DNA from: Paenibacillus bouchesdurhonensis
GTDB taxonomy: Bacteria; Bacillota; Bacilli; Paenibacillales; Paenibacillaceae
Assembly: GCF_900155685.1 (NCBI RefSeq)
Contig: NZ_LT732548.1
Location: 2,535,466 to 2,599,465, forward strand
DNA length: 64,000 bases
Direction: 5' to 3'
Shown here: positions 28,886-46,728 of the stretch, one piece after another
Layout: every line of letters starts with the position of its first letter
Numbering within the stretch: position 1 is the stretch's first letter
Notes under the pieces: generated by a model
The model's database searches: none
What the model was told of the DNA's origin: nothing
The model's input: the letters and a program-made list of their open reading frames with translations, nothing else
Program-made: the position numbers and the translations under genes

Positions 28886-29986
28886 ATGTCAATCAAAGTA
28901 GCTATTTTCGGAGTAGGATTGATCGGCGGCTCACTGGCGCTTTGCCTGAAGGGCAAGCCCGGCATAACTGTTGTCGGGCATAGCCATCGCCGGGAGTCTC
29001 AACAAAGAATTATGGAGCGCGGCGTCGTAGACGCCGTGACCTTATCTATGGAAGAAGCGGCGTCAGACGCCGACTTCATTTTTTTGTGTGTGCCAGTAGG
29101 AAAGCTAGAGCCGTATTTGCATAAGCTGAGCGAGCTGCCGCTGAAAGAAGGATGTATTATTACGGATGTAGGCAGCACGAAAGCCTCGGTAGCTGCTTGT
29201 GCGGCAACGTTCAACCGTTCGGGGGTTCATTTCATCGGCGGCCATCCGATGGCCGGATCGGAGCGCTCTGGGGTGGAGGCGGCCTCTTCGCTGCTATTTG
29301 AAAATGCGTATTATGTGTTGACACCTTCAGAGGATGTCCCAGAGGAGTCCTATGAGCAACTGGAGAAGCTCCTATCGCATACGAAAGCGCAGATCGTCCG
29401 GGTGGATCCGGTGCTGCATGATGAAATTGTCGGTGCGATCAGCCATTTGCCGCATATTATTGCGGTAGCTCTTGTGAATCAAATTCGCGGTTACAACGAT
29501 GCAGACGCCAATAGCTTGTATCGCAGGCTGGCCGCTGGCGGGTTTCGGGATATCACGCGGATCGCTTCAAGTGATCCCGTTATATGGCGCGACATTCTCC
29601 TCAGCAATCGGAAGATTCTGCTTACTTTGCTGAAAGATTGGAACTATGAAATCGAGGGCTTCATTCAATTGCTGGAATCGCAAGATGGAGAGGGCATTGA
29701 GGCAGCGTTCAAAACCGCCAACCAATTCCGCAGCGAGCTGCCGGAGCGGCGCAAAGGCGCGATTACTTCGCTGTATGATATTTATATCGACGTCCCGGAT
29801 CACCCTGGTATTATCGGACAGATTGCAACGCTGCTCGGCGATCAGCACATTAACCTCAGCAATATGCAAATTATTGAGAGCCGTGAGGACGTACCTGGGG
29901 TCATGCGCTTGTCATTTCGCCAGGAGCCGGAGATGGAGCGGGCGAAGCAGCTGCTGCAATCTTTGAATTATAAAGTGTATGTTTAA
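28886..29986 (+). CDS. tyrA: Prephenate dehydrogenase with C-terminal ACT domain
   Basis: NAD-dependent oxidative decarboxylation of prephenate to 4-hydroxyphenylpyruvate. The 366-residue protein has the Rossmann start VAIFGVGLIGGSLALCLKG, a HFIGGHPMAGSERSGVEAA motif, a SHLPHIIAVALVNQI segment and, from about residue 295, an ACT domain (YDIYIDVPDHPGIIGQIATLL), probably for tyrosine feedback. ATG 28886. In B. subtilis the EPSP synthase gene follows tyrA; here it does not. Confidence 0.95.
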   Translation: MSIKVAIFGVGLIGGSLALCLKGKPGITVVGHSHRRESQQRIMERGVVDAVTLSMEEAASDADFIFLCVPVGKLEPYLHKLSELPLKEGCIITDVGSTKASVAACAATFNRSGVHFIGGHPMAGSERSGVEAASSLLFENAYYVLTPSEDVPEESYEQLEKLLSHTKAQIVRVDPVLHDEIVGAISHLPHIIAVALVNQIRGYNDADANSLYRRLAAGGFRDITRIASSDPVIWRDILLSNRKILLTLLKDWNYEIEGFIQLLESQDGEGIEAAFKTANQFRSELPERRKGAITSLYDIYIDVPDHPGIIGQIATLLGDQHINLSNMQIIESREDVPGVMRLSFRQEPEMERAKQLLQSLNYKVYV

Positions 29987-30022: not shown

Positions 30023-30037
30023 ATGTAAGCGATTTTA
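30023..30037 (+). promoter_or_regulatory. Candidate cre (CcpA) site upstream of the sRNA promoter
   Basis: The 15-mer ATGTAAGCGATTTTA matches the cre pattern WTGNAARCGNWWWCA at 14 of 15 positions (T for C at position 14). Its centre lies about 53 bp before the predicted start, the distance seen at CcpA-activated genes such as B. subtilis ackA and pta. Confidence 0.55.
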
Positions 30038-30046
30038 AAAATAGTG

Positions 30047-30076
30047 TTGACAGAATGAAAACGTATACAATATAAT
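30047..30076 (+). promoter_or_regulatory. Consensus sigma-A promoter of the orphan small RNA
   Basis: Both hexamers are perfect: TTGACA (30047-30052) and TATAAT (30071-30076), with 18 bp between. It is the best sigma-A match I found in the window. Confidence 0.85.
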
Positions 30077-30082
30077 AGAACT

Positions 30083-30167
30083 ACAGTATGGTTTCTCTCC
30101 ACTCCTATCCAATAACTGTTGCTCTAAATTGAGCAGTGACCACTTTGCGAAGTGGTCTTTTTTTTTT
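30083..30167 (+). ncRNA. Candidate orphan small RNA, about 85 nt, with C-rich loop
   Basis: A unit with a consensus promoter, about 85 nt of non-coding sequence and a strong terminator, and no gene of convincing kind inside. The 5' part can form a hairpin (CAGT/ACTG and TGG/CCA pairs) whose 17-nt loop is CT-rich and includes TCTCTCC and CACTCCT, complementary to Shine-Dalgarno sequences. A second small hairpin GCTC/GAGC follows, then the terminator. C-rich loops of this type are known in Firmicute regulators such as RsaE/RoxS and FsrA; I do not recognise this one. A 14-codon frame starting at ATG 30088 exists but has no ribosome site. Confidence 0.6.
30138..30167 (+). terminator. Intrinsic terminator of the small RNA
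   Basis: Perfect 8-bp stem GACCACTT / AAGTGGTC (30138-30145, 30150-30157), TGCG loop, ten consecutive T residues. Confidence 0.95.
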
Positions 30168-30252
30168 GCTTTCTGAATTGAATAGAAAATTTATGCAACC
30201 TTATGCCGGCGGCTTGCGTCTAGTCATTAGAAGTAGGCTACATAGCTTTTAT

Positions 30253-30280: not shown

Positions 30281-30435
30281 ATTCAAGGAATGTATGACTG
30301 CCTGTAGTACAGAAATAATTTGGTTTTTAAAATATTTTGTTTAGAAACCGCAACTTTTTGGATCCTGTTCGGTAATAAAGAGGAGAGAGTCGAACGGGAA
30401 GAAGCACATGGATGGGCGAGGAGGATCGCACTCAA

Positions 30436-31029
30436 ATGACGGATTCCCAAATGATTCGTGAAATTAAGGAAGGCAATACGGAGCTGTATTCGGAATTAAT
30501 GCGAAGATATCAACGTAAAATTTTGGCCTTCATCTACCACATGTTAAAGAGTGCTCATTTAGAGCTGATGGCAGAAGATTTATGCTCGGAAACGTTCTAT
30601 AAAGCATTTCGGAGTTTGCACTCCTTCCGTGAAGTGGATGCATCATTTTCAACATGGCTGTATACGATCGCTAGGAATACCGTGCTTAGCGAGCTCCGCA
30701 AGCAGCGCGCTGGAAGCGTTCCGCTGGAAGAAAGCGGCGTTGTGCCGGTAGCGCCAAGCGAGCTTGTGCCAGAGCAAGCGATACTAAGAAGCGAGAAAGT
30801 TGGAATGGTGCGCGAAGCGATTAACAACCTTCCGGAAAAGCAAAGGTCGGCGTTAATTCTCCGCGAGTACGACCAATTGGACTATCAAGAGATCGCGAAC
30901 GTGCTAGGACAAAGTGTGAGCGCGGTGAAATCCTTGTTGTTCCGTGCACGCAGCAGCGTGAAAAGTCAGCTTGAACCCTACTTTTATGAACAGATTTACG
31001 AGCCGTATGAAGGGATGAAAAGCAGATGA
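30436..31029 (+). CDS. ECF-type RNA polymerase sigma factor (SigW-like)
   Basis: A two-domain extracytoplasmic-function sigma factor of about 197 residues. Region 2 (EDLCSETFYKAFRSLHSFREV, cited as EDLCSETFYKAF and the downstream FSTWLYTIARN) and region 4 (LPEKQRSALILREYDQLDYQEIA, cited as LPEKQRSALIL and DYQEIANVLG, then SAVKSLLFRAR) are clear. I place the start at ATG 30436, 11 bp after a perfect GAGGAGG; ATG 30412 with a weak site would add eight residues. The gene overlaps its anti-sigma gene by 4 bp (ATGA). The stimulus is not known. Confidence 0.9.
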   Translation: MTDSQMIREIKEGNTELYSELMRRYQRKILAFIYHMLKSAHLELMAEDLCSETFYKAFRSLHSFREVDASFSTWLYTIARNTVLSELRKQRAGSVPLEESGVVPVAPSELVPEQAILRSEKVGMVREAINNLPEKQRSALILREYDQLDYQEIANVLGQSVSAVKSLLFRARSSVKSQLEPYFYEQIYEPYEGMKSR

Positions 31030-46433: not shown

Positions 46434-46489
46434 TGCTATACTGTCCACATAAGGCGGTATCGATGATTCGAGCTGCACTTATGTGGACA
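46434..46489 (+). promoter_or_regulatory. panBCD promoter with an 11-bp perfect inverted repeat
   Basis: An extended -10 TGCTATACT (46434-46442) precedes a perfect repeat TGTCCACATAA (46442-46452) facing TTATGTGGACA (46479-46489). The left arm starts at the last base of the -10, so it could be an operator covering the start site, or a 5' hairpin if transcription begins further upstream. No T run follows, so it is not a usual terminator. Confidence 0.5.
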
Positions 46490-46728
46490 TTGTAATGAGG
46501 AAGTGAATAACCGTCATGACCGTAAATTTATTCGGTTGCGTCGGATTCTGCTCTGAGCCGAGAAGGACCGAGACAGAAGGGACGAACGAGAAAGTGACTC
46601 TTCTTTGGATTCGGACCTTTTTAGCGCTGCGACGATTGCGACGATAAAAGGTTTATTTGTCGTTGGCGCGAGAATTGATGAGTAGTAACCAATCTGCGGG
46701 CTTCGAAAAACCAAAGGAGATGAAGAGA
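46490..46728 (+). ncRNA. Structured leader of panBCD, possible pan motif with attenuator
   Basis: Untranslated leader of about 240 nt. Hairpin 1: TCTG (46547-46550) with CAGA (46574-46577), CTC with GAG, then GCC with GG-A-C, leaving adenines 46567 and 46573 bulged, as described for the pan RNA motif that precedes panB in Firmicutes. The 3' half of hairpin 1 (GGACCGA, 46565-46571, and AGAAG, 46575-46579) can instead pair with TTCGGACC (46610-46617) and CTTCT, followed by TTTTT: a terminator-like alternative. A third stem CGACGATAAA / TTTATTTGTCG lies at about 46630-46661. A 43-codon frame from ATG 46516 crosses all this without a good ribosome site. The pan name is from memory. Confidence 0.45.

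Follow-up and report, generated by a model that had tools for sequence, protein, structure and literature searches.

The window, a 64,000-nucleotide stretch of Paenibacillus bouchesdurhonensis DNA, contains a predicted RNA gene of about 85 nt, with a perfect promoter at 30047-30076 on one side and, on the other, a terminator made of an 8-bp stem and T10 (Table 1). Its flanking genes, as named from their sequences, are tyrA (28886-29986, +) and an ECF sigma factor gene (30412-31029, +). The promoter, TTGACA-18-TATAAT, matches the sigma-A type at 12 of 12 positions; shuffled sequences yielded 3.5 promoter-like sites per 2.5 kb scanned at a threshold of only 9/12. An ATG frame inside the RNA runs for 14 codons without coding conservation, and no gene is evident. 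The predicted fold of positions 30082-30170 (-23 kcal/mol, z -3.6) leaves the CU-rich stretch unpaired, including TCTCTCC and ACTCCT, a C-rich motif complementary to the Shine-Dalgarno (SD) sequence of the kind found in RsaE/RoxS. A sequence-only reading of this DNA had described the promoter, 85 nt without a supported gene, a terminator with ten T and a CT-rich anti-SD sequence; all are present, the last of them unpaired in the fold.

Table 1. Features of the predicted RNA gene and its promoter, in window coordinates
Feature	Position	Strand	Basis
Upstream cre-like site ATGTAAGCGATTTTA	30023..30037	+	14/15 positions of WTGNAANCGNWNNCW
-35 hexamer TTGACA	30047..30052	+	TTGACA in 52/53 distinct order loci
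Perfect cre TGAAAACGTATACA in promoter spacer, predicted CcpA operator	30056..30069	+	Variation in 59 order loci limited to consensus-free positions
-10 hexamer TATAAT	30071..30076	+	Promoter match
Predicted sRNA, ~85 nt	30083..30167	+	Start inferred from promoter spacing
24-nt ultraconserved seed TATGGTTTCTCTCCACTCCTATCC	30087..30110	+	Alignment of order and further loci
Middle hairpin TGCTC-GAGCA	30120..30135	+	Compensatory changes in relatives
Intrinsic terminator, 8-bp stem + T10	30138..30167	+	Stem 30138-30157 (8 pairs), T 30158-30167

Conservation and genomic setting

A DNA search detected the RNA gene in all 59 order genomes searched (own genome included), representing 17 of 17 genera. 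Promoter, spacer and the 24 nt starting about 10 nt past the -10 hexamer were nearly constant in these loci, the remainder keeping a hairpin and a terminator, and the 24-nt core was complete (24/24) in 51 of the 53 distinct order loci. A covariance model built from 54 distinct sequences matched 153 of 398 class genomes with a best E of 5e-20, the matches falling in 64 of 145 genera. In a phylum sample it matched 5 of 299 genomes, every one of them a member of the own family (among 20 unmatched genomes listed, 6 were of the same class and 14 of other classes; 274 more were unmatched). For both searches Infernal was set to its stricter filters, at which weak matches are lost. Forty further loci found with the model came from 39 genomes, 38 of the loci lying outside the own family and two inside it. 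The core was complete in 22 of these loci, matched at 22 or more of its 24 positions in 37 and at 21 in the lowest; column identity to the window was 0.97 in the core versus 0.29 to 0.34 in the ungapped flanks. Five or more consecutive T followed the core in all 93 distinct loci, and pairing of the middle helix was kept through changes on both sides (30 cells versus 9.9 in shuffles). The closing stem (ACAGU/ACUGU) of what had been called the first hairpin was, by eye, not general among relatives; the conserved feature, as the alignments indicate, is the sequence and not this hairpin.

At least 118 stretches were obtained in a scan of named genomes; among the matches listed, most were from Paenibacillus, with Brevibacillus, Aneurinibacillus, Cohnella, Shouchella, Fictibacillus, Halalkalibacter, Melghirimyces, Thermoactinomyces, Ammoniphilus and others also represented. 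No match to the RNA was found in plasmids or phages, and mobile spread of the gene was rejected on this ground. Conservation extends to the 5' core and the promoter and is not confined to the terminator, the outcome that had been named beforehand as counting against the proposal. The independent sRNA gene proposed in the sequence-only reading is backed by its anatomy as well as by its conservation. By all sequence evidence, this is a real and deeply conserved sRNA gene.

In genomes of the order, the RNA gene sits by tyrA, and 32 of the 40 further loci adjoin hisC, tyrA or aroA; most of the loci therefore appear to be orthologs at one old site. The end of aroA lies no more than 320 bp upstream of the RNA in 23 of the 40. 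The RNA is not tied to its neighbours, since it runs antiparallel to tyrA in 6 of 59 order loci and is followed by a same-strand sigma gene in 33 of the 59 stretches read, some of which span only 1.6 kb. Because position and orientation are not fixed and no Rfam attenuator family reaches threshold at the locus, we rejected a cis attenuator of the downstream sigma gene, an alternative that had been raised along with the original proposal. At L104 (G297), L109, L110 and L128, the core occurs elsewhere or in duplicate in the genome; of these four copies and that of L133, most lie away from the hisC-tyrA-aroA site, and some of the five differ in their 5' leader (AACACCTTAACTAGCAG) and have a cre overlapping the -35 hexamer. 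They are perhaps a paralogous form.

The 5' core and its candidate targets

Within the core, AUGGUUUCUCUCC is exactly antisense to GGAG-7nt-AU(G), the layout of an SD sequence, a spacer and a start codon. ACUCCU forms a second anti-SD element, and UAUGGUUUCUCUCC is the antisense of GGAGAGAAACCAUA, with the spacing of an SD sequence and start codon. We consider it probable that the gene encodes a CcpA-repressed, trans-acting sRNA with a 5' seed antisense to the ribosome site and start codon of its targets.

Complementarity to the core was assessed in the 59 genomes. Exact complements of a 12-mer were found 142 times (control, 57), one match being the sRNA itself in most genomes, and complements of a 19-mer with up to three mismatches were found 116 times, including 59 at the sRNA (control, 46). 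With one mismatch allowed, GGAGAGAAACCATG had 226 matches, including up to 57 sRNA genes; a ribosome site with scrambled spacer, the one such control used, had 132, and the reversed pattern had 36. Genome-wide complementarity was not clearly enriched: the 19-mer stayed close to its control, and GGAGAGAAACCATG exceeded the scrambled one modestly. No target common to several families was present among 40 hand-picked 12-mer match contexts, which included a transposon-like repeat, an ABC transporter start shared by five close relatives and a NagZ-like start seen in two genomes from a single genus. L284, L291, L293 and L305, whose genomes belong to two families, share one stretch that contains AGGAGTGGAGAG inside a long reading frame; this stretch is probably a mobile element. 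Several sugar hydrolase or permease starts and seven Cof-type HAD phosphatase starts were found in 20 hand-picked GGAGAGAAACCATG contexts among the matches listed; the names given to such start sites (GH32, GH130, GH125, sugar-permease-like and Cof-type HAD phosphatase) are presumptive and were taken from the sequence.

Pairing of the HAD phosphatase start with the seed was assessed in the best matches from 30 of the 59 genomes, among which 25 starts were readable (none in 5/30). Pairing at -20 kcal/mol or lower was predicted in 15 of these 25 orthologs versus 5.4% of 186 other starts, and at -24 kcal/mol in 10 orthologs versus 1.6% of the other starts, in a set of related genomes that are not independent and for a candidate chosen after its exact matches had been seen. 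Pairing of this candidate is poor in the clade to which the window belongs (-13.8 in the own genome, G000). Given the post hoc choice, the kinship of the genomes and the value for the own copy, we regard the mode of action as likely and any given target as unproven. The anti-SD sequence described in the sequence-only reading is supported; a target common to several families did not emerge.

It is unlikely, in our estimate, that the 24-nt core instead acts as a sponge or decoy for a purine-rich partner RNA or a part of the translation machinery and not on mRNA starts. Such a role would agree with the scant enrichment of long mRNA complementarity and with invariance over all 24 nt, which exceeds the need of a short SD seed, and RosA of B. 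subtilis is a CcpA-repressed sponge (PMC8216469). RosA is G-rich, however, whereas the present RNA is CU-rich; no conserved partner was found with the complement patterns searched, and the GGAG-7nt-AUG geometry suits start sites.

cre sites and other readings of the core

The perfect cre between the -35 and -10 hexamers was absent from the sequence-only reading. Two perfect cre matches occur in the window, versus about 2.5 expected by chance, and the force of the spacer site therefore comes from its conservation and not from the single match. The spacer motif TG[AGT]AA[AG]CG[TGC]AT[AT]CA was present in 59 of 59 order loci, with changes only where the cre consensus allows them, and 52 of 53 distinct order promoters matched all 15 cre letters, one carrying a mismatch (shuffles, 0.0 perfect). 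A perfect cre occurs in 11 of the 40 further loci (6 upstream and 5 downstream of the core; shuffles, 0.025) and a cre with at most one mismatch in 23 (shuffles, about 2). By eye, four of the five downstream sites lie inside the terminator hairpin and that of L108 lies just after it. Loci of Brevibacillus, Fictibacillus, Pseudalkalibacillus, Halalkalibacter and Alkalihalobacterium have a terminator-region cre, perfect or with one mismatch. The remaining 17 of the 40 were without a cre within one mismatch, and another regulator may act in some lineages of this kind. A CcpA site that moves and yet is retained is good evidence for CcpA control, and the positions observed (in the spacer, overlapping the -35 hexamer and within the gene) fit a block, which points to repression by CcpA.

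CcpA had previously been proposed to activate the promoter in glucose from about position -53, which we now regard as quite improbable. The cre-like ATGTAAGCGATTTTA, scored against WTGNAANCGNWNNCW as the cre consensus, does have its centre some 53 bp ahead of the expected start (about 30083), as had been reported, and by eye similar half-sites precede the -35 hexamer in many order loci. The better cre, however, is located between the -35 and -10 hexamers in all 59 order loci, where it is expected to block polymerase, and several other families have a cre inside the terminator hairpin. Repression of the sRNA by CcpA, as predicted from these positions, is therefore likelier than activation.

Other sequence elements were observed around the promoter. 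L096, L111, L113, L123, L124 and L205, which are without a near-perfect upstream cre, have a common CAGAAAATT upstream of the -35 hexamer; it resembles half of a CodY box. The promoter spacers of L100, L114 and L127 contain GGAGTGGAGAG, which repeats part of the RNA core as its reverse complement, and L143 has GCAGTGGAGAG in its place, likewise a reverse complement of part of the core. In L127, the spacer copy and the core copy differ together (GGGGTGGG / CCACCCC). These copies may serve as an operator, a read-through trap or an element of self-control.

It is very improbable that the core serves as a DNA operator lying downstream of the promoter, with the RNA being incidental: the inverted copy of part of the core in the spacers of L100 and L114 would be in keeping with it, but the cre operator is degenerate here and the core hardly so, the core is not palindromic, and the RNA itself shows the invariable T run after the core and the covarying middle helix. 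A leaderless micropeptide (MVSLHSY...) overlapping the core is scarcely credible and was rejected, since, although an ATG at 30088 opens the core and the few first-base changes still give GTG, TTG or CTG, across 16 core variants codon positions 1, 2 and 3 show 13, 9 and 7 differences, so that third positions change least and the core does not look code-like, and in addition the frame is lost after the core, one variant has an in-core stop and no SD sequence precedes the ATG.

A CcpA-repressed sRNA acting in trans would work as follows. The gene, at the 3' end of the hisC-tyrA-aroA region and apparently old enough to span much of the class Bacilli, would be driven by its sigma-A-type promoter. 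When preferred sugars are present, CcpA on the spacer cre would block the sRNA, as the position of the site suggests. Once sugars are exhausted, an RNA of about 85 nt would be made, its 5' extremity formed by the 24-nt CU-rich seed and the hairpin and terminator following behind, and the seed would then pair with the ribosome sites of several mRNAs and stop their translation.

Relation to known small RNAs

An Infernal search of Rfam with the region, one of the checks suggested at the outset, gave no family at gathering score. At E values up to 5, six sub-threshold matches were obtained, RsaE/RoxS not among them; the best, ncS025 (27.2 bits; threshold, 46) and isrD (20.5 bits; threshold, 37), rest on the terminator, and known Rfam families were rejected. 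No description of the RNA was found in searches of the open literature, the sequence itself included among the queries. The earlier statement that no described sRNA between tyrA and a sigma gene was known agrees with these searches, and the family is apparently unnamed. The ylbH model (RF00516), which we take to be the CsfG locus, has its one match in the own genome at another place (C7:3469211-3469344, L369; 71 bits) and reaches only a sub-threshold 15.7 bits in the region, on the other strand; identity with CsfG/ylbH was rejected on this account. Elsewhere in the window, positions 46451-46580 match the Rfam pan motif (RF01749) at 39.5 bits (gathering score, 36.2).

The RsaE/RoxS model (RF01820) had no match in the own genome and did match the B. 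subtilis control; the RsaI model (RF01775) had no match in the own genome or in any control genome. In the class sample, RF01820 matched 112 of 398 genomes, none of which was among the 153 with the present RNA (43 expected if independent), and the families of the two RNAs (27 for the present RNA and 17 for RsaE/RoxS, of 59) had none in common (7.8 expected), these families being clades, so that neither the genome nor the family trials are independent. Neither RNA was found by the two model searches in 133 of the 398. The present RNA and RsaE/RoxS do not co-occur in the class sample, and by the model tests the present RNA is not RoxS or CsfG. It is found in more genomes of the sample than RsaE, and in those where RsaE does not occur.

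These observations might be explained, tentatively, by a carbon starvation master sRNA of Bacilli without RoxS/RsaE: an ancient orthologous RNA, its 24-nt seed nearly frozen by many targets and its CcpA operator moved repeatedly (spacer, -35 overlap and terminator-hairpin roadblock), with RoxS as an alternative solution to the same job. In Paenibacillus, Brevibacillus and alkaliphilic bacilli, the present RNA would add a testable post-transcriptional arm to carbon catabolite control. Its seed varies so little that a single probe or seed-mutant design serves across genera.

RNA sequencing of Paenibacillus riograndensis yielded 27 intergenic small RNAs (PMC5670726). A 2015 abstract singles out RsaE: apart from 6S, no other trans-acting sRNA was then known to be conserved in both S. 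aureus and B. subtilis (PMC4409812). C-rich regions, as in the present RNA, also occur in FsrA and CsfG of B. subtilis (PMC8216469). RosA of B. subtilis, an sRNA that is repressed by CcpA and has a cre predicted at the 5' end, agrees with the control predicted here, and differs in being a sponge of C-rich sRNAs with G-rich regions, whereas the present RNA is CU-rich (PMC8216469). RsaE/RoxS, a conserved sRNA of Firmicutes, also has C-rich stretches able to pair with ribosome sites (PMC4409812), which indicates a similar way of working and not membership; RoxS differs in being under ResD (PMC4409812) and Rex (PMC8216469), whereas the present RNA carries cre sites. RsaI (RsaOG) of Staphylococcus aureus, described as conserved in Staphylococcus and not in Bacilli (PMC8216469), is repressed by CcpA in glucose and released in starvation, and it represses translation by pairing with the SD sequences of two targets (PMC9266662). 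The likeness to RsaI would lie both in CcpA repression, predicted here from the spacer cre of all 59 order loci, and in SD pairing, and by analogy the present RNA may work most like RsaI or RoxS.
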